NCBI RefSeq assembly: GCF_026013905.1 | Contig: NZ_CP110257.1 | Coordinates: forward strand, 2,192,001 to 2,256,000 | Source of the DNA: Schlegelella aquatica | Lineage (GTDB): Bacteria > Pseudomonadota > Gammaproteobacteria > Burkholderiales > Burkholderiaceae_C | DNA length: 64,000 nt | Direction of reading: 5' to 3' | Shown here: positions 1,795 to 59,330 of the stretch, piece after piece | How the letters are laid out: each line of letters starts with the position of its first letter | How positions within the stretch are numbered: position 1 is the first letter of the stretch | Notes under the pieces: generated by a model | Database searches by the model: none | Seen by the model: only the letters and a program-made list of their open reading frames with translations | What the model was told of the DNA's origin: nothing | Program-made: the position numbers and the translations under genes

Positions 1795-2096
1795 GCCCCC
1801 GGGGGCGTGCGCCCCCCCCCGAGGGGGATGAGCCTGGACACGCGGGCGTGCCTGCGCACGGCCGCGTGCCTGGCGAATCCGAGCGGCATGCTTGCCGCGA
1901 GGTGGGCACGGCCCGGCTTCGGGCGGCCGGGCGCCGGGCACATATCTTTGCCCCCGGGGCTTGCGCCCTACCCCCCGAGGGGGATGAGCTTGGACACGCG
2001 GGCGTGCCTGCGCACGGCCGCGTGCCTGGCGAATCCGAGCGGCATGCTTGCCGCGAGGTGGGCACGGCCCGGCTTCGGGCGGCCGGGCGCCGGGCC
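1795..2096 (-). repeat. two tandem copies of a long hairpin-rich intergenic repeat
   Basis: Copy 1 spans 1795-1949 and copy 2 spans 1950-2096. They are nearly identical, with a few point changes. Each copy joins two modules: the hairpin module also found at 9883-9960 and 21842-22100, and an extra module of roughly 80 bases seen only here. Stem-loops visible in the sequence include CCCCC-CGA-GGGGG, and CCCGGC paired with GCCGGG. Copy 2 ends on the base next to the mnhG stop codon. No coding potential is credible here. The repeat occupies the whole gap between yqhA and mnhG. Confidence 0.8.
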
Positions 2097-2438
2097 TCAG
2101 GGCCGGGGCTGGTCGGCGGGAGGCGGGGCCTTCGCCGGGACGCGCAGGTGCAGCGCCGCCTGCGCGAGCAGGTTGGCCGACACCGGAGCGGTCACGAACA
2201 GGAACAGCGTGATCAGAAGCTCGTGCAGGCCGAACTCGCCCTGCGCCCAGTTGACCAGCATGCTGGCCATGAGCACGCCGCCCACGCCGAGCGTGGTGGC
2301 CTTGGTGGGCGCATGCAGGCGCATGTAGAAGTCCGGAAACCGCAGCATGCCGATCGCGCCGACCAGCGCGAAGACGCCGCCGACGACGAGCATGGCGGCG
2401 ATCGCCACCTGGGCCCAGGGTTGCAAACTCTCGAACAT
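2097..2438 (-). CDS. mnhG: Na+/H+ antiporter subunit G (MnhG/MrpG)
   Basis: This is the last gene of the six-gene Mrp/Mnh operon and codes for a 113-residue membrane subunit of the multisubunit cation/proton antiporter. Three hydrophobic segments are visible. The family signature region GMLRFPDFYMRLHAPTKATT lies near residues 29-48. The C-terminus is a short proline-rich tail. It starts four bases after the end of mnhF. Its TGA stop is followed directly by the hairpin repeat at 1795-2096, and the tail could have been shaped by that repeat. Confidence 0.93.
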   Translation of the reverse strand: MFESLQPWAQVAIAAMLVVGGVFALVGAIGMLRFPDFYMRLHAPTKATTLGVGGVLMASMLVNWAQGEFGLHELLITLFLFVTAPVSANLLAQAALHLRVPAKAPPPADQPRP

Positions 2439-5238: not shown

Positions 5239-8078
5239 GGTGCGGGGCTCCTCGGGGTGGCGGCCGGCTCCTTGCTGGCGCCCGCCAAGACGGACAAGGT
5301 GAGCAGTGTCGACCCCACGACCGTGACATAGACGCCCAGATCGAACAAGGCCGCGCTGGCGAGCGGCAACTCGCCGAGGACCGGCACACTCGGGTGGCCG
5401 TGCGCGCTGGTCAGGAAGGGTTGACCGAAGACGAAGGACCCGAGCCCGGTGAGGGCAGCGAGACCGAGCCCGGCGCCGATCCAGCGCACGAAGCGGCGAC
5501 CGCCGCCGGCATGCAACAGCGTGTCGGCCCATCCCTGGCCCACGGCCATGTACTGCAGCACCAGCGCCACCGCCGTGACGAGGCCCGCGATGAACCCGCC
5601 GCCCGGCAGGTTGTGCCCGCGCCAGAAGATGTAGGCGCTGAGCACGAGCGCGATCGGCAGCACCAGTCGTGCCACCACCCGCAGCATCACCGGCTCGGCC
5701 CTGAAGCTCCAGGGGCGCCCCCGCGGGTCGAGGGCCGGGCGGCGCACGCGCAAGCCTTCCATCAGCGCCAACACACCGATCGCCGCGATGCCGAGCACGG
5801 TGATCTCGCCGAAGGTGTCGTAGCCTCGAAAGTCCACCAGGATGACGTTGACGGCATTGGTGCCGCCACCGCCGGGCACCGATTGCTCCAGGAAGTACCA
5901 GGAGATCGAGTCATGGTCGCGGGTGAGCATCAGCCACGTGACCCAGCTCACTGCGCCTCCGCCCAGCAGCGCGACGAGCGCATCGCGCCCCCGACGCCAG
6001 GCGGGCGACTCGCGAGGAGACGTCTGCGGCAGCAGGGCCAGCCCCATGAGCAGCAGCACCGTGGACACCACGTCCACCGAGAGCTGCGTCATGGCCAGGT
6101 CCGGCGCGGAGAGCGACAAGAAGGCGAGCGACGCCACCAGGCCGACCGCGCCGGCCAGCACGACCGCCAGGAAGCGCTGGCGGTGCATCACGACCAGGGC
6201 CGCACCGGCCACGACCAGGGCCAGCCACACGGCAACCGCCAGCGGCGGGGCGGGCAGCAAGGGGCGATCGCCCGCGGCCAGGCCCTCCGCCCCGGGTTGC
6301 CATAGGGGCCAGGCGCCCAGCACGAGGGCGGCCGCGAGCATCCAGGCGACGTAGCGCTGCAGCGAACCGTTCTCGAGCGCCGCCGTCAGTCGCCCTGCGC
6401 CGCGGAACAAGCCCTCGACCAGTGCCGTGAACACGGTCTTGCCGCCCCAGGCCTTCGTGGTGTAGCGATGCAGTCCGCCCCGCTGCTGCAGCCCCATGTA
6501 CAGCAGCGCCCCGCCCGCCAGCGCGATGCCGCTCATGAGCAGCGGCCAGCCGAGCCCGTGCCAGAGAGCCAGGTGATGCTGCGGCGCGGGTGCACCGAGC
6601 ACGGCGCTCGCCGCCACCTCCACCAGGGGCCCGGCGATCATCGCAGGCAGCAGGCCCACCGCGATGGAGATCGCGATCAACAGGAGGGCTGGCAGCTTCA
6701 TGCCCAATGGCGGCTCGTGGGGGCGGGGGTGAGGCAGATCGCGCGGCGGGCCGTTGAAGAACGTGTCGTGCGCGAAGCGCAGCGAGTAGGCGACCGAAAA
6801 CAGGCTGGCCAGGGTCGCCAGCAGCGGCACGGCCCAGCTGAGGGTGCCCCACAGGCGCGACTGCACCGCTTGGTCCAGCATCATCTCCTTGCTCACGAAG
6901 CCGTTGAAGAGCGGCACGCCGGCCATCGCCGCGGCCCCGAGCAGCCCGATCGTGCCGATCCAGGGCATCAGCCGCATCAACCCGCCGAGCCGGCGCATGT
7001 CGCGCGTACCGGTCTCGTGGTCGACGATGCCCGCAGCCATGAACAGCGCCGCCTTGAAGCTCGCATGGTTGAGGATGTGGAACACCGCCGCGACTGCCGA
7101 CATCGGCGAGGCGAGACCGATCAGGAAGGTGATGAGCCCCAGGTGGCTGATGGTCGAGTACGCCAGCAGGCCCTTGAGGTCATGGCGGAAGATGGCGATG
7201 AAGGCGGCGAGCGTCATCGTCAGCAGGCCGACGCTGCCCACGATCAGTTCGAAGGCCGGGCTGGGGCCCAGCACCGGGTACAGCCGCGCGAGCAGAAAGA
7301 GGCCCGCCTTCACCATCGTGGCCGAGTGCAGATAGGCCGACACGGGCGTGGGCGCCGCCATCGCTTCGGGCAACCAGAAGTGAAACGGCCACTGCGCACT
7401 CTTGGTGAAGCAGCCGAGCAGGATCAGCACGAGCGCCCCCCCGAACCGCGGGTCGGCCCGCACGGCCTCGCCGCGCTCGAGCAACTCGGACAGCTCGTAG
7501 GTGCCGGCGATCTGCCCGAGGAGCACCACGCCCGCCAGCAGCGCCAGCCCCCCGCCGCCGGTGACGGTGAGCGCCGTGCGCGCGCCCGCACGCGCGTCCT
7601 CCCGGTGCCCCCAGTACCCCACCAGCAGGAACGACGAGATGCTGGTCAGCTCCCAGAACACGACGAGCAGGAGCAGGTTGTCGGCCAGCACGATGCCCAG
7701 CATCGCGCCCATGAAGAGCATCAGCAAGCCGTAGAACTTGCCGGCCGGGTCGTCCTCGTGCAGGTAGAACGCGGCGTAGGCGACGATGAGCAGCCCCATG
7801 GCCGTGATCAGCCCGGCGAACATGAGGGCCAGTCCGTCGAGTCGGAAACCGAGATTGAGCCCGAGTGCGGGCACCCACGACGTGCGCTCGACCCGCACCT
7901 CCCCGTCGAAGACGGAGCCGCCGAGCACGATGAGCAGCGCCAAGGCGGCCAGGGTGACGGCGGCGGCCGCGCCGGCCGCCGCGCGGCGGCGCGCGGGGGT
8001 GTTGCGGCCACCGATCCACGTGCAGGCGAGCGTGCCGAGGATCAGCGGCAGGCAGACGATCGAGCTGAGCAGACCCAT
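5235..8078 (-). CDS. mnhA: Na+/H+ antiporter subunit A fused to subunit B (MnhAB/MrpAB)
   Basis: This 947-residue protein heads the Mrp operon. Residues 1 to about 750 form the MrpA (NuoL-like) antiporter domain, with FTKSAQWPFHFWLPEAM and the following TMVKAGLFLLARL. After further helices, the last part (from about PRGRPWSFRAEPVMLRVVAR) matches the MrpB domain, including GHNLPGGGFIAGL. A/B fusion is typical of group 2 Mrp systems, so no separate mnhB is expected. The ATG was chosen for its AGGAG ribosome site. An 11-base G tract (8098-8108; C on the coding strand) lies about 20 bases upstream. The complex exports Na+ in exchange for H+ and supports pH and salt tolerance. Confidence 0.94.
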   Translation of the reverse strand: MGLLSSIVCLPLILGTLACTWIGGRNTPARRRAAAGAAAAVTLAALALLIVLGGSVFDGEVRVERTSWVPALGLNLGFRLDGLALMFAGLITAMGLLIVAYAAFYLHEDDPAGKFYGLLMLFMGAMLGIVLADNLLLLVVFWELTSISSFLLVGYWGHREDARAGARTALTVTGGGGLALLAGVVLLGQIAGTYELSELLERGEAVRADPRFGGALVLILLGCFTKSAQWPFHFWLPEAMAAPTPVSAYLHSATMVKAGLFLLARLYPVLGPSPAFELIVGSVGLLTMTLAAFIAIFRHDLKGLLAYSTISHLGLITFLIGLASPMSAVAAVFHILNHASFKAALFMAAGIVDHETGTRDMRRLGGLMRLMPWIGTIGLLGAAAMAGVPLFNGFVSKEMMLDQAVQSRLWGTLSWAVPLLATLASLFSVAYSLRFAHDTFFNGPPRDLPHPRPHEPPLGMKLPALLLIAISIAVGLLPAMIAGPLVEVAASAVLGAPAPQHHLALWHGLGWPLLMSGIALAGGALLYMGLQQRGGLHRYTTKAWGGKTVFTALVEGLFRGAGRLTAALENGSLQRYVAWMLAAALVLGAWPLWQPGAEGLAAGDRPLLPAPPLAVAVWLALVVAGAALVVMHRQRFLAVVLAGAVGLVASLAFLSLSAPDLAMTQLSVDVVSTVLLLMGLALLPQTSPRESPAWRRGRDALVALLGGGAVSWVTWLMLTRDHDSISWYFLEQSVPGGGGTNAVNVILVDFRGYDTFGEITVLGIAAIGVLALMEGLRVRRPALDPRGRPWSFRAEPVMLRVVARLVLPIALVLSAYIFWRGHNLPGGGFIAGLVTAVALVLQYMAVGQGWADTLLHAGGGRRFVRWIGAGLGLAALTGLGSFVFGQPFLTSAHGHPSVPVLGELPLASAALFDLGVYVTVVGSTLLTLSVLAGASKEPAATPRSPAP

Positions 8079-8355: not shown

Positions 8356-9882
8356 ATGAGCACCACCATCCGATACGACGACCTCGTCGAAAGCGTGGCC
8401 GCGGCCCTGCAGTACATCTCCTACTACCACCCGGCCGACTACATCGCCCACTTGGCCCGCGCCTATGAGCGCGAGGAGTCGCCGGCCGCCAAGGACGCCA
8501 TCGCGCAGATCCTGACCAACTCGCGCATGTGCGCCGAAGGCAAGCGCCCGATCTGCCAGGACACCGGCATCGTCAACGTGTTCCTCAAGATCGGCATGGA
8601 CGTGCGCTGGGAGGGCTTTTCCGGCTCGATCGCCGACGCGATCAACGAGGGCGTGCGGCGCGGCTACCTGAACCCCGAGAACAAGCTGCGCGCCTCGGTG
8701 CTCGACGACCCGCAGTTCGAGCGCAAGAACACGAAGGACAACACCCCCGCCGTCATCCACATGGAGGTGGTGCCGGGCGACAAGGTGGACGTCATCGTCG
8801 CGGCCAAGGGCGGCGGCTCGGAGAACAAGTCCAAGTTCGTGATGATGAACCCGAGCGACAACCTGGTCGACTGGGTGCTCAAGACGGTGCCGCAAATGGG
8901 CGCCGGCTGGTGCCCGCCCGGCATGCTGGGCATCGGCATCGGTGGCACCGCCGAAAAAGCGATGCTGCTGGCCAAGGAAGCGCTGATGGAGGACATCGAC
9001 ATGTACGAGCTCCAGCAGCGCGGCCCGCGCAACAAGCTGGAGGAGCTGCGGCTGGAGCTGTACGAGAAGGTCAACGCGCTGGGCATCGGGGCCCAGGGCC
9101 TGGGGGGCCTGACGACGGTGCTGGACGTCAAGATCAAGATGTACCCGACCCACGCGGCCTCCAAGCCGGTGGCGATGATCCCGAACTGCGCTGCCACGCG
9201 CCATGCGCACTTCGTGCTGGACGGCTCCGGCCCGGCCTACCTCGAGCCGCCGAGCCTGGACCTGTGGCCCGACGTCAACTGGGCGCCGGACTACAACAAG
9301 AGCCGCCGCGTCAACCTGGACACGCTGACACGCGAAGAGGTCGCGAGCTGGAAGCAAGGCGAGACGCTGCTCTTGTCCGGCAAGATGCTCACCGGCCGCG
9401 ACGCCGCGCACAAGCGCATCCAGGACATGCTCGCCCGTGGCGAGAAGCTGCCGGTGGACTTCACCAACCGCGTCATCTACTACGTCGGCCCGGTGGACCC
9501 GGTGCGCGACGAGGTGGTCGGCCCGGCCGGCCCCACCACCGCCACGCGCATGGACAAGTTCACCGAGATGATGCTGGCCCAGACGGGCCTGATCGCGATG
9601 ATCGGCAAGGCCGAGCGCGGCCCGGTGGCCATCGAGGCGATCAAGAAGCACCAGAGCGCCTACCTGATGGCGGTCGGCGGGGCGGCCTACCTCGTCTCGA
9701 AGGCGATCAAGTCGGCCAAAGTCGTCGGCTTCGAGGACCTCGGCATGGAAGCGATCTACGAGTTCGAGGTCAAGGACATGCCGGTGACGGTGGCCGTCGA
9801 TGCAGGCGGCACCAGCGCCCACATCGAGGGCCCGAAAGTCTGGCAGGCCAAGATCGGCAAGATCCCGGTCGCGGCGGTCTGA
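8356..9882 (+). CDS. class I fumarate hydratase (4Fe-4S, FumA/B type)
   Basis: A 508-residue oxygen-sensitive class I fumarase that interconverts fumarate and malate in the TCA cycle. The N-terminal alpha domain carries Cys67 in PICQDTG and a later Cys in GAGWCPPGM. A third Cys is in MIPNCAATRHAHF. Together these match the three cluster ligands of the family. The beta domain includes TTATRMDKFTEMML. The start (MSTTIRYDD) gives a normal family length; a longer open frame upstream lacks conservation. It is divergent from mnhA, and its TGA stop is followed at once by one copy of the hairpin repeat. Confidence 0.95.
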   Translation: MSTTIRYDDLVESVAAALQYISYYHPADYIAHLARAYEREESPAAKDAIAQILTNSRMCAEGKRPICQDTGIVNVFLKIGMDVRWEGFSGSIADAINEGVRRGYLNPENKLRASVLDDPQFERKNTKDNTPAVIHMEVVPGDKVDVIVAAKGGGSENKSKFVMMNPSDNLVDWVLKTVPQMGAGWCPPGMLGIGIGGTAEKAMLLAKEALMEDIDMYELQQRGPRNKLEELRLELYEKVNALGIGAQGLGGLTTVLDVKIKMYPTHAASKPVAMIPNCAATRHAHFVLDGSGPAYLEPPSLDLWPDVNWAPDYNKSRRVNLDTLTREEVASWKQGETLLLSGKMLTGRDAAHKRIQDMLARGEKLPVDFTNRVIYYVGPVDPVRDEVVGPAGPTTATRMDKFTEMMLAQTGLIAMIGKAERGPVAIEAIKKHQSAYLMAVGGAAYLVSKAIKSAKVVGFEDLGMEAIYEFEVKDMPVTVAVDAGGTSAHIEGPKVWQAKIGKIPVAAV

Positions 9883-9960
9883 GGCCTGGCGCTCGGCCGC
9901 CCGGAGCCGGGCCGTCACTTCCGTGGGGGGTGGGGCGTACGCCCCGGGGGCGAAGATACA
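9883..9960 (-). repeat. single 78-bp copy of the stop-codon-adjacent hairpin repeat
   Basis: This 78-base element begins on the base after the fumarase TGA. It matches, in inverted orientation, the units repeated at 21876-22100. Bases 9883-9890 pair with 9906-9913 (GGCCTGGC with GCCGGGCC, one G-U pair in RNA) around a 15-base loop. The central block contains the perfect palindrome GGGGCGTACGCCCC. The second stem seen in the other copies (ACCCCC with GGGGGT) is degraded here. It fills the first half of the gap to the convergent mscS gene. A further small hairpin (AGGCCC with GGGCCT) follows at 9961-9977. Confidence 0.75.
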
Positions 9961-10039
9961 AGGCCCTCGCGGGGCCTCGCCTCCTCGGGGCCAAGCCCTG
10001 TCGCCGAGGCCCCCTAGCCGCCCTCCCCGGCCCCTGTCT

Positions 10040-21336: not shown

Positions 21337-21834
21337 TTGGTCTCCTCTCGACTCCTGACGAACCGCAGGGCGCTGCTCGGGCTGGGCAGCCTCGTCAGCC
21401 TGGCGGCCGTGGGCGCGGCGCTCGTCTCACAGTACGCGTACGGCATGGCGCCGTGCCCGTGGTGCATCCTGCAACGGGTGATCTTCCTCGCCATCGCGCT
21501 GGTGTGCGGGCTGGGCTGGCTGGGACGAGGCGCCGTGTGGCAACGCACGATGGCAGCGATCGCCGGGCTCTTGTCCGCCAGCGGCGTGGCGGCCGCCGTG
21601 TACCAGAACACCGTGGCCGCCAAGGCGTTCTCGTGCAATCTCACGCTGGCCGACCGCATCATCACGGCCCTGGGGCTGGAAGGTGCGGTGCCCTTCCTGT
21701 TCCGCATCGAGGCTTCGTGCGCCGACGCCGCCGTCACGCTGCTCGGGCTGCCGTACGAGTCCTGGAGCGGCGCCTTGTTCGCCGTGATGGCGGTGGTGGC
21801 CGCCTGGCTCGTACTGCGACGCAACGCCGACTGA
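21337..21834 (+). CDS. dsbB: disulfide bond formation protein B
   Basis: A 165-residue inner-membrane quinone reductase that reoxidises periplasmic DsbA. Four transmembrane helices are present. The first cysteine pair is Cys40 and Cys43 in APCPWCILQR; the second is Cys100 and Cys128 in FSCNL and EASCADA. The start is a TTG with an AGAAGGA ribosome site at a suitable distance; no ATG fits. Three bases after its stop, a perfect inverted repeat (GGCCGCCC with GGGCGGCC, 21837-21854) begins the repeat array. Confidence 0.93.
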   Translation: MVSSRLLTNRRALLGLGSLVSLAAVGAALVSQYAYGMAPCPWCILQRVIFLAIALVCGLGWLGRGAVWQRTMAAIAGLLSASGVAAAVYQNTVAAKAFSCNLTLADRIITALGLEGAVPFLFRIEASCADAAVTLLGLPYESWSGALFAVMAVVAAWLVLRRNAD

Positions 21835-21841
21835 CAGGCCG

Positions 21842-22100
21842 CCCCCGGGCGGCCGAGCGCGGGGCATGTATCTCTGCCCCCGGGGCGTGCGCCCCACCCC
21901 CCACGGGGGTCACGGCCCGGCTCCGGACGGCCGAGCGCCGGGCATATGTCTTTGCCCCCGGGGCGTGCGCCCCACCCCCCACGGGGGTCACGGCCCGGCT
22001 CCGGGCGGCCGAGCGCCGGGCATATGTCTTTGCCCCCGGGGCGTGCGCCCCACCCCCCACGGGGGTCACGGCCCGGCTCCGGACGGCCGAGCGCCGGGCC
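21842..22100 (-). repeat. tandem array of the 78-bp hairpin repeat (three units plus a partial)
   Basis: Full or near-full units start at 21876, 21954 and 22032, an exact period of 78. A partial unit precedes them. Units differ by single bases. Each contains GGGGCG-TG-CGCCCC, the stem ACCCCC-CAC-GGGGGT, and an outer stem GGCCCGGC with GCCGGGCC (on the minus strand). The last unit ends on the base adjacent to the parC stop codon. The array fills the whole convergent gap between dsbB and parC. It is not a CRISPR array: there are no variable spacers. Confidence 0.85.
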
Positions 22101-24419
22101 TCAGGCTCCCACCACCCGCTGCGGCTTCATCGCCAGGTCCGCCGCCTTGCCCTTGCGCGCTCGCTTCGAGACGTACGTGGCGAGGGCGGCGCCGCGCAGT
22201 TCCTCGTCCTTCGGCTTGCCGCCGCGGCCGGTGCCCTGCACGCGCAAGGTCGTGGCGAACACCGCGACGGACACCAGCGGGTCCTTGGCGTCGACGTCCA
22301 TCAGCGTCAGCCCCCGCCCCCCATTGGACTGGAGCTTCAGCTCGTCGAGCGCGAAAACGAGCAGCCGCCCGCTCATCGACAGGCACGCCACCTGCGTGCC
22401 TGCCCCCACCGCGGCCGGTGGCAGGAGGCGCGCGCCCTCGTCCAGCGTGAGGAAGCTCTTGCCGCCCTTCTGGCGCGACAACATGTCGCCCACGCGGGCC
22501 AGCAGCCCGTAGCCGGCCGTGTTCGCCAAGAGCAGCGTGGTGTCGGCCGGCGCGGCATAGTAATGCGCCAGTTGGGTGCCGGCCTCCAGCTCGATCATGG
22601 TCGTCACCGGCTGGCCGTCGCCCCGGGCGCCGGGCAGCGAGGCGACGGGGACGCTGTAGACGCGGCCGTTGGAGCCGAACACCAGCAGCGTGTCCACCGT
22701 GCGGCACTCGAAGGTGCCGTACAGCCCGTCGCCGGCCTTGAACGCGAAAGCCATCGGATCGTGCCCGTGGCCTTGGCGCGCACGCACCCAACCCTTCTGG
22801 CTCACGACCACCGTGACCGGCTCGTCGATCACCTTCACCTCGGCGACGGCGCGCTTGTCCTCCTGGATGAGCGTGCGGCGTTCGTCGCCGAACTGCTTCG
22901 CGTCCGCCTCGATCTCCTTGATCACCGTGCGACGCAGACTCGCCGGGCTGGCAAGGATGTCCTCCAGCCTGGTCTGCTCCTCGCGCAGCGAGGCGAGCTC
23001 CTGTTCGATCTTGATCGCCTCCAGGCGCGCGAGCTGGCGCAGCCGGATCTCGAGGATGTCCTCGGCCTGCCGGTCGGTGAGGCGAAAGCGCGCGATCAGC
23101 GCCGGCTTGGGCTCGTCGGCATTGCGGATGATGCGGATCACCTCGTCGATGTTCAGCAGCACCAGCTGCCGGCCCTCGAGCACGTGGATGCGGTCCAGCA
23201 CCCGGTCGAGCCGATGCCGTGTGCGCCGCTGCACCGTCTGCAGTCGGAAGGCGGTCCATTCGGTGAGGATCTGCCGCAGCGGCTTCTGCGTCGGCCGCCC
23301 GTCGCCGCCGACCACCGTCAGGTTGACCGGCACCGAGGTCTCGAGACTGGTGTGGGCCAGGAGCGCGCGCACCAGTTCCTGCTGGTCGATGCGGCTGGTC
23401 TTGGGCTCGAACACCAGACGCACCGGCGCGTCCTTGCTCGATTCGTCGCGGGCCACGTCCAGCAGGCCCAGCATCGTCGCCTTGAGTTGCTGCTGCTCCG
23501 AGGTGAGCGTCTTCTTGCCGGCCTTGACCTTCGGGTTGGTGAGCTCCTCGATCTCCTCCAGCACCTTCTGGCAGCTCACGCCCGGCGGCAGCTCGGTGAC
23601 GACGAGCTGCCACTGCCCGCGTGCGAGGTCCTCGATCTTCCAGCGGGCGCGCACCTTCAGGCTGCCCCGGCCGGTGGCATAGGCCTCGCGGATGTCGGCG
23701 GCACTGCTGATGATCTGCCCCCCACCGGGGAAGTCCGGGCCCGGCAGCAGGGTCATCAGCTCGTCGTCGCAGAGCCTGTCGTTCTTGAGCAGCGCGACGG
23801 CGGCGGCCGCCACCTCGCGCAGGTTGTGCGAGGGCACCTCGGTGGCCAAGCCCACCGCGATGCCGCTCGCGCCGTTGAGCAGCACGAAGGGCAGGCGCGC
23901 GGGCAACTGACGGGGCTCCTCGGTCGAGCCGTCGTAGTTGGGCACGAAGTCCACCGTGCCCTCGTCGATCTCGTCGAGCAGCAGGCGCGCGATGGGCGAA
24001 AGGCGCGCTTCCGTGTAGCGCATCGCCGCCGCGCCGTCGCCGTCGCGCGAGCCGAAGTTGCCCTGCCCGTCGATGAGCGGATAGCGCTGCGAAAAGTCTT
24101 GCGCCATGCGCACCAGCGCGTCGTAGGCGGCCTGATCGCCATGCGGATGGAAGCGGCCCAGCACATCGCCCACCACGCGCGCGCTCTTGACCGGCTTGGC
24201 GCCGGCGGCGCCGGTGTAGCCCAGGCCCATGCGCTGCATCGCATAGAGGATGCGGCGCTGCACCGGCTTTTGCCCGTCGGTCACATCGGGCAGGGCCCGG
24301 CCCTTGACCACCGACAGCGCGTATTCCAGGTACGCCCGCTCGGCGTAACGCGCCAGCGTCAGCGCCTCGCCCCCGTCGGCCGTGGCGTTGTCGAACAGAT
24401 CGAACGTCTCTTGGCTCAT
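22101..24419 (-). CDS. parC: DNA topoisomerase IV subunit A
   Basis: The 772-residue ParC subunit of topoisomerase IV, which decatenates replicated chromosomes. The catalytic Tyr lies in [12 protein letters not shown] near residue 123. The quinolone-resistance region reads [20 protein letters not shown]: the position equal to Ser80 of E. coli ParC is Gln and that equal to Glu84 is Asp. The C-terminal beta-pinwheel region is present but short. It is the last gene of parE-GNAT-parC. Gyrase A is excluded by the gene context and by the short C-terminal domain. Confidence 0.94.
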
Positions 24420-39176: not shown

Positions 39177-39337
39177 GGGCGGCGATTATCGACAAGAGCC
39201 GACGCCCCCACGGGTGCGAGGCCGTCCCCACCCTCGAGGCACTGGGGCTCGGCGAGCCCTTGCCCCGAGAGGCGATCGCCGGGAAGCCGCTCGCTCGATG
39301 CGGGACCGGCGCTGGACCCGCCCGCGATGGCACGCGC

Positions 39338-39453
39338 CTGCCCGTTCGCTTGCCCGTTCGTCTGCCCGTTCGTCTGCCCGTTCGTCTGCCCGTTCGCCTG
39401 CCCGTTCGTCTGCCCGTTCGTCTGCCCGTTCGTCTGCCCGTTCGTCTGCCCGT
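39338..39453. repeat. 12-bp tandem repeat array (nine full units plus a partial)
   Basis: Units of CTGCCCGTTCGT or one-base variants start at 39338 and recur every 12 bases to 39434, with an eight-base partial at 39446. Variation is confined to a few positions. The array lies outside recognised genes, about 140 bases upstream of the regulator's start codon. Copy number is likely variable between strains. Confidence 0.9.
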
Positions 39454-39538
39454 CCCGCCTGCCGGAGCGCGGGCGTTTCGCGGGGCATTTCGCCGGCATC
39501 AACCCCGAATTTGCAAAGATTCAGAAAATCCTGAAAAT

Positions 39539-39553
39539 TCAAGCATTGCTTGA
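39539..39553. promoter_or_regulatory. candidate operator upstream of the GbsR/MarR regulator
   Basis: A perfect 7-bp inverted repeat, TCAAGCA-T-TGCTTGA, lies 40 bases before the regulator's start codon in the AT-rich island. A second, shorter dyad (TTCAG at 39520-39524 with CTGAA at 39531-39535) lies just upstream. The positions suit autoregulation by the regulator; binding is inference. Confidence 0.45.
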
Positions 39554-39593
39554 TCGAACGCAACCCGCCGCCTTGACACCCCCGGAGGCCTTC

Positions 39594-40160
39594 ATGAGCA
39601 GCTTGTCTCCCCTCGTGCGCAGCTTCGTGTCCCACTTCGGAGAGATGGGCAGCCGTTGGGGCATCAACCGGACGGTCGGCCAGATCTACGCGCTCATCTT
39701 CGTCTCGCCGCGCCCTCTGCACGCCGAGGAGATCGCCGAGCAGCTCGAGTTCTCCCGCTCCAATGTGAGCATGGGCCTGAAGGAGCTGCAGGCCTGGAGG
39801 CTGGTGCGCCTCAAGCACCTGCCCGGCGACCGGCGGGAGTACTTCGAGGCGCCGACCGAGCCATGGGAAATCTTCCGCACGCTGGCCGAAGAGCGCCGGC
39901 GCCGCGAGATCGAGCCGACGCTGTCCATGCTGCGCAGCGCGCTGATGGACAAACCGGCCACCGAGGAGGACCGCATCGCGCAGGAGCGCATGAAAGGCAT
40001 GCACGACCTGATCGAACTCATCACGACCTGGTTCGACGACGTGCAGCGCATGGACACCAAGACCCTGGTGCAGCTGATGCGCATGGGGTCCAAGGTGCAG
40101 AAGCTGCTCGAACTGACCGGCAAGATGAAGGTCCTGCCGGGCGGCAAGAGCGGCGCGTGA
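39594..40160 (+). CDS. GbsR/MarR-family transcriptional regulator
   Basis: A 188-residue DNA-binding protein of the GbsR branch of MarR regulators. The winged helix-turn-helix includes PLHAEEIAEQLEFSRSNVSM near residues 43-62 and a wing region LKHLPGDRREYFEAP. The C-terminal helical part should dimerise. The ATG at 39594 has a GGAGG ribosome site; the frame is open far upstream through the minisatellite, but that is not credible protein. It lies 18 bases before cydA, so it probably regulates itself and the cytochrome bd operon. Confidence 0.88.
   Translation: MSSLSPLVRSFVSHFGEMGSRWGINRTVGQIYALIFVSPRPLHAEEIAEQLEFSRSNVSMGLKELQAWRLVRLKHLPGDRREYFEAPTEPWEIFRTLAEERRRREIEPTLSMLRSALMDKPATEEDRIAQERMKGMHDLIELITTWFDDVQRMDTKTLVQLMRMGSKVQKLLELTGKMKVLPGGKSGA

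Positions 40161-57688: not shown

Positions 57689-59330
<1,642 letters not shown>

Follow-up and report, generated by a model that had tools for sequence, protein, structure and literature searches.

The closest described system is the Beta-proteobacterial repeat element (BRE; Hot et al. 2011, PMC3110155), which according to its published description is 75-91 bp long with 69% GC, stands in tandem in variable number and is mostly intergenic, with some copies overlapping ORF ends by a few bases and some in coding sequence. Its distribution among betaproteobacteria is patchy, including Bordetella and Comamonadaceae, and the highest number listed is 29 copies in one genome (PMC3110155). The published section gives no hairpin model, stop-codon rule, target or empty site (PMC3110155), and no stop-codon rule for BRE was seen in the literature searched. 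Other short repeats offer partial parallels: REPs measure 20-40 bp and BIMEs alternate in orientation (PMC2817692), the Correia/NEMIS, ERIC, RUP, RPE and YPAL elements are described as non-autonomous and structured, with in-frame gene insertions and target duplications (PMC2229807), and MIRUs, according to a 2025 review, seem to be mobile, with start codons as insertion sites and a coupling of -4 nt (PMC12548453).

Here we analyzed a window of 64,000 nucleotides, bases 2192001-2256000 of the 3,348,564-base single-contig genome of Schlegelella aquatica (G000), in which the initial annotation had noted a hairpin-rich repeat at three places, as a tandem array, as one inverted copy and twice as a longer variant. 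All three were recovered (Table 1), the tandem array being placed by TRF at 21845-22099 with a period of 78, 3.3 copies and 96% matches; the stems of the unit match those described, and Pfam searches bear out tail-to-tail flanks at each locus, namely UPF0114 (YqhA)/MnhG, fumarase/MscS-like and DsbB/topoisomerase IV subunit A. The repeat unit is about 79 bp long and consists of three successive hairpins, arranged in head-to-tail direct tandems. Hairpin 1 of the parC array begins on the base next to the parC stop codon, the array reading away from parC, and an equally exact abutment to one gene's stop is found at all three arrays of the window (mnhG 2097, fumarase 9882, parC 22101). The 81-bp insert of the long variant folds strongly alone, and among 929,326 bases taken from the own genome it has no strong match elsewhere (next best E 0.004). 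The window also holds two 12-bp tandem arrays, one at 39338-39453 (9.7 copies, 95%) inside a called gene (39327-40160) and one at 57959-58026 (5.7 copies, 98%) between called genes.

Table 1. Repeat units and the genes that they adjoin (window positions unless marked G000; CM, covariance model)
Feature	Position	Strand	Basis and remarks
Array of three full units and a partial far-end copy	21843..22100	(-)	TRF; CM matches 22022-22100 and 21866-21944
Middle unit of the parC array	G000:2213944-2214022 (own-genome coordinates)		CM match
Anchor gene, topoisomerase IV subunit A (parC)	22101..24419	(-)	Stop codon 22101-22103 adjoins the array; Pfam
Single unit directly 3' of the fumarase stop codon	9883..9961	(+)	CM, 93.3 bits
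Parts of the unit 9883-9961	hairpin 1 9883-9913; hairpin 2 9917-9931; hairpin 3 9932-9945; tail 9946-9961		Limits set by eye
Anchor gene, class I fumarase	8356..9882	(+)	Gene call, Pfam
Two long units in tandem (period 155), directed away from mnhG	1795..2096	(-)	CM match, distance to stop
First copy of the 81-bp insert, located between hairpins 1 and 2	1827..1907	(-)	BLAST of insert
81-bp insert, other copy, 98.8% identical to the first	1983..2063	(-)	BLAST of insert
Anchor gene, Na+/H+ antiporter subunit MnhG/PhaG	2097..2438	(-)	Gene call, Pfam

Further copies exist in the genome far above chance. BLAST of the own genome returned at least 120 pieces at E<=10, most of them far below that limit (40 of 88 candidates scored), and a covariance model (R1) made from an alignment of 33 first units (A1) gave at least 123 genome matches at E<=0.01 (150 of 10707 candidates scored). 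After the stretches around the arrays were re-searched, the count by covariance model stood at a minimum of 119 matching units at E<=0.001, grouped into 58 arrays (51 own-genome sources); these copy counts, as well as the counts of genomes given below, are lower bounds because only part of the candidates was scored. Outside the 58 stand a piece found by BLAST only (G000:30849-30901) and a degenerate copy near G000:2315360 that failed the E<=0.001 threshold. The units are spaced 76-81 bp apart in the own genome, the exceptions being 156-157 bp, where a hairpin 1 was missed, and 155 bp in the long variant, and the GC content of the model matches is 0.67-0.88.

Using flanking genes called by our own codon model, we found that 32 of the 58 arrays have convergent neighbours and 2 have neighbours called divergent; where the flanking genes are co-directional, the unit shares their sense in 19 arrays and opposes it in 5. 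By comparison, a systematic 400-kb sample of the own genome (n=329 junctions) held 39 convergent, 249 co-directional and 41 divergent junctions. Convergent junctions are enriched, so that orientation is not random, yet the arrays are not confined to them, as had been proposed from the three loci of the window; by our gene calls, 3 of the 10 convergent junctions of the window itself hold the repeat. In 51 of the 58 cases, the closest gene beyond hairpin 1 reads in the direction of the array. The convergent excess persists among these arrays whose hairpin-1 side faces a gene end, 32/51 being convergent vs 72/203 control 3' ends with room, that is, with a gap of >=20 bp if convergent and >=60 bp if co-directional (p ~7e-5).

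The position of the arrays follows the stop codon of a single gene more closely. In 36 of the 58 cases the array begins exactly 0 nt after the stop codon of a called gene and reads away from it; by chance, such a hit on the correct strand would occur in roughly 0.3% (327 gene 3' ends; 49,894 bp of gaps >=30 bp, two strands). A stop triplet directly precedes 40/58 arrays, one of the 40 being a junction inside an array. Of the 22 arrays without an exact start at a called stop, five begin 1, 3 or 7 nt after one and one begins 11 nt after, and an array of a second subfamily, whose first unit escaped the model, lies at distance 0. Once this last array is counted as anchored, 15 of the 58 lie more than 11 nt from a called stop or have none within the search range, several of them degenerate or without hairpin 1. 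At the other end, none of the 58 arrays has its last matched unit within 1 nt of the stop of the opposite gene. We also rejected the idea that hairpins generally adjoin stop codons, the best stem starting within 3 nt of the stop at 3/203 gene 3' ends of the own control sample, in which a few arrays are included. This polarity and this anchoring form a rule that is absent from the initial annotation, whose observation is partly confirmed and whose interpretation is partly supported. To the eye, a unit resembles its neighbours in the same array more than the units of other arrays, which points to tandem amplification in place. RAGGCC closes many arrays and also follows the stop codon at their start; this terminal motif may be a target duplication or a remnant of the next unit. 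Two gaps between called genes, L127:4407-4689 and 7445-7745 (G000:60001-80000), share 175 bp at 95% identity that are unrelated to the repeat.

The second subfamily occupies G000:3257122-3257479, with 4.5 copies of 80-bp units that have other stem letters. Its upstream NMT1-like gene ends in ATGA, and the downstream gene matches ABC_tran (Pfam), with an in-frame ATG for this gene in the last partial copy; the gene caller chose a later start. This locus is an example of the stop/start type within the host genome.

The unit is maintained as a structure across genomes. In an alignment fitted to the model (A2; 33 rows from 20 loci, several of them from one array and four from the own genome), 96.6% of 560 cells are paired and 15 of 19 pairs have changed on both sides, with a covariation score of 0.547 vs 0.132 in shuffles, none of 500 shuffles reaching as high, and at most 47.9% pairing when the partners were slid. 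Because the alignment is model-fitted and its rows are non-independent, these counts lean upward; the slid and shuffled controls still differ widely from them. One pair of the inner 3-bp stem of hairpin 1 also covaries, and the tip of this hairpin is near-invariant, reading GCN-SGG-CCGY-CCS-RAG (columns 9-25). Within the own genome, where the copies are too similar, covariation is nearly nil (1 pair). In the RNA fold of minimum energy, the own unit pairs its C-tract with the terminal G-tract, an alternative that was discarded as it is without covariation support. A comparison with Rfam gave no family that reached its gathering score, either in the window or in 19 loci, and none matched at E<=10 at 21700-22200.

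We then turned to relatives, with searches that scored 11-15 candidates per genome. R1 matched at least 14/299 genomes of the family, and a second model (R2), built on 33 matches, found the element in at least 36/399 genomes of the Burkholderiales, from ten families, and in at least 2/369 sampled genomes of the class, both from the own family; the own genome is included in all three counts. The relatives' matches mostly span 75-95 bp (extremes 66 and 100), and tandem copies also occur in some of them (L225, G390, G500). By DNA search, the unit was absent among the 22 candidates scored in each of 8 genus relatives, and in 400 kb from each of two genus relatives we found one marginal model match between them and no intergenic repeat families of this kind. 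One DNA match outside the own genome (G011) was dropped as coding by eye. No match to the parC array was found in 72,556 plasmid and 50,697 phage records, and a plasmid or phage origin was set aside for want of matching records. The exact hairpin-1 pattern was found in no viral contig and in two stretches of genome contigs, one an in-frame copy in an uncultured bin and the other in Streptomyces, which was judged by eye to be a chance coding match.

Translation-termination sites recur among the relatives' copies. We classified the 45 copies with a retrieved locus (1 of 46 had no called genes and was dropped), using a gene-calling model trained on G001, and set them against 1944 control windows, mostly noncoding. 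A called stop lies <=12 nt from an end of 27 copies vs 6.8% of control windows, a start lies near an end of 10 copies vs 7.9%, and both are present in 9 copies vs 1.2%; three copies sit within coding frames, and for 14 none of these features was seen. Hairpin 3 is the side facing the stop in 23 copies and hairpin 1 in 5, one copy being counted in both; the own genome shows the reverse.

A filled and an empty state of the same site were found at the ftsW-murG junction, which we surveyed in 19 genomes of one genus, 17 of them with a MurG match and 16 with a readable junction. G323 and G450 carry the element with GCATGAA on both flanks; 13 of the 14 others show a 4-nt stop/start overlap, ATGA in 11 and GTGA in 2, and the upstream open frames of the empty-site genomes have >=409 codons. 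Judged from the flanking letters, the filled sites fit what insertion into ATGA with duplication would give, and the site was probably filled once, before the split of two sister species. In G698 (L272), a different palindromic insertion with a junction-region repeat occupies the same stop/start site.

In-frame copies lie in genes for HPPD (L108), HypB (L209) and a UvrD-like helicase (L212). For HPPD, we aligned the query with 15 homologues picked by hand from at least 120 listed (8000 proteins passed); the insert is present in 10 of the 15 and absent in 5, and the closest homologue, 96% identical, is without it. As the insert is found in several relatives and is absent in close ones, it is old or was repeatedly gained. 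The HPPD of L108:3107-4243 and homologues P0005, P0007, P0008, P0013 and P0121 carry a repeat-derived stretch of ~20 residues in frame.

Several explanations have been considered for such a distribution. The units could be functional 3' ends, that is, mRNA-stabilising or factor-dependent terminator hairpins that spread by gene conversion and are kept by selection at the ends of transcription units, with mobility playing a minor part. Their exact position behind stop codons, the excess at convergent junctions and the stable predicted hairpins agree with this possibility, as does the 80-nt RNA reported from a BRE locus in Bordetella (PMC3110155). We nevertheless consider it rather unlikely: a terminator of the T-run form, one of the roles first suggested for the repeat, was not found at the parC array (21600-22300 scanned), some copies in relatives are found within operons, between two genes, or in coding frames, positions at which a terminator would do harm, the eight genus relatives searched by DNA gave no copy of the unit, and stop-adjacent hairpins are no general rule at gene 3' ends. 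Another possibility is that the units were selected to keep convergent transcription apart, as a barrier (already raised in the initial annotation) or insulator, or to bind gyrase in the manner of BIME-2. The convergent excess that would speak for it stands, at 32/58 arrays vs 39/329 junctions; a barrier is unnecessary to explain the position, because the anchor is a single stop codon with a fixed polarity, not a gene pair, and 19/58 arrays are co-directional. With most convergent junctions of the window unoccupied, such a role is highly improbable as the main explanation.

The resemblance to a selfish REP/BIME-type element, as initially annotated, holds insofar as the repeat appears to be a selfish, dispersed and structured sequence. 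Small palindromic repeats in many copies would be expected of a classical REP or BIME mobilised by a RAYT (Y1 transposase), and GTAG REPs also often supply stop codons (PMC3733652), REPs in general being palindromic, numerous and often downstream of genes (PMC2817692). The unit is, however, a 79-bp three-hairpin sequence in direct tandems, and the search for a RAYT gene gave no PF01797 match at E<=0.001 in the own genome. A Y1 transposase is present in 5 of 14 element-bearing genomes, and 9 of the 14, the own included, are without it. Since it was not found in the own genome and its presence does not track the element in relatives, we rejected RAYT as the mover, and a REP mobilised in this way has very little probability.

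We consider it probable instead that the repeats are order-wide non-autonomous mobile elements that use stop sites as a safe haven and are then amplified in tandem in place. The unit described here would be a local subfamily of an order-wide superfamily of non-autonomous elements of ~75-95 bp with three hairpins, which would insert at translation-termination sites; in relatives the site could be a stop/start overlap (ATGA), and in operons the ends of the insert would leave the upstream gene with a stop codon and the downstream gene with a start codon. The main subfamily of the own genome sits immediately behind stops, hairpin 1 first, mostly where free space follows, and convergent junctions are favoured, perhaps because nothing downstream suffers. 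After arrival, copies would multiply by head-to-tail duplication and be homogenised within the array. The tip of hairpin 1 is a likely recognition site of a putative trans-acting enzyme that would read folded single-stranded DNA or RNA. Roles at 3' ends, in translation termination or in supercoiling, if any, would be secondary, and the elements would be mainly selfish. The weak points of this proposal are that the filled and empty states were seen at one locus in relatives, that the usual orientation there is opposite, and that no empty site was found for the own subfamily, whose eight genus relatives gave no DNA match, so that its movement is inferred.

The repeat is probably BRE. It shares with BRE the unit length, the high GC, tandem copies with few or no spacer bases, a mostly intergenic location, the overlap with ORF ends and some coding copies; these tested features fit, and membership, matched on published features, is probable and not proven. 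The likeness to MIRUs is one of behaviour and comprises short tandem repeats and insertion at a start codon or stop/start overlap, the latter for the superfamily only (ftsW-murG; 9/45 copies). MIRUs have a DTGA target. They belong to another phylum and carry a coupled small ORF, and the main subfamily of the own genome, unlike them, lies mainly behind stops at gene ends and not in operon joints. With the MITE-like elements of bacteria, the repeat shares a non-autonomous, structured nature, in-frame insertions and target duplications; it differs from them in its three successive hairpins and its stop/start site, and no terminal TA rule was seen.

A wider proposal, which we put forward tentatively and regard as possible though slightly on the doubtful side, is that these elements represent an unrecognised, order-wide class of mobile DNA that is recognised by structure and targets stop or stop/start codons. 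Their ends would rebuild the codons, and a non-RAYT enzyme would read the hairpin tip while the stems drift by paired changes, giving near-costless entry to operons and gene ends. If membership in BRE holds and the model is true, a repeat so far named and unexplained becomes testable through its structure, its recognition motif, its target rule and one locus in filled and empty form. Insertion at stop/start codons may be a strategy common to the repeats of betaproteobacteria and the MIRUs of mycobacteria. A hairpin that follows a stop codon in these genomes need not be a terminator, and some protein inserts, as in HPPD, HypB and the UvrD-like helicase, are repeat-derived.
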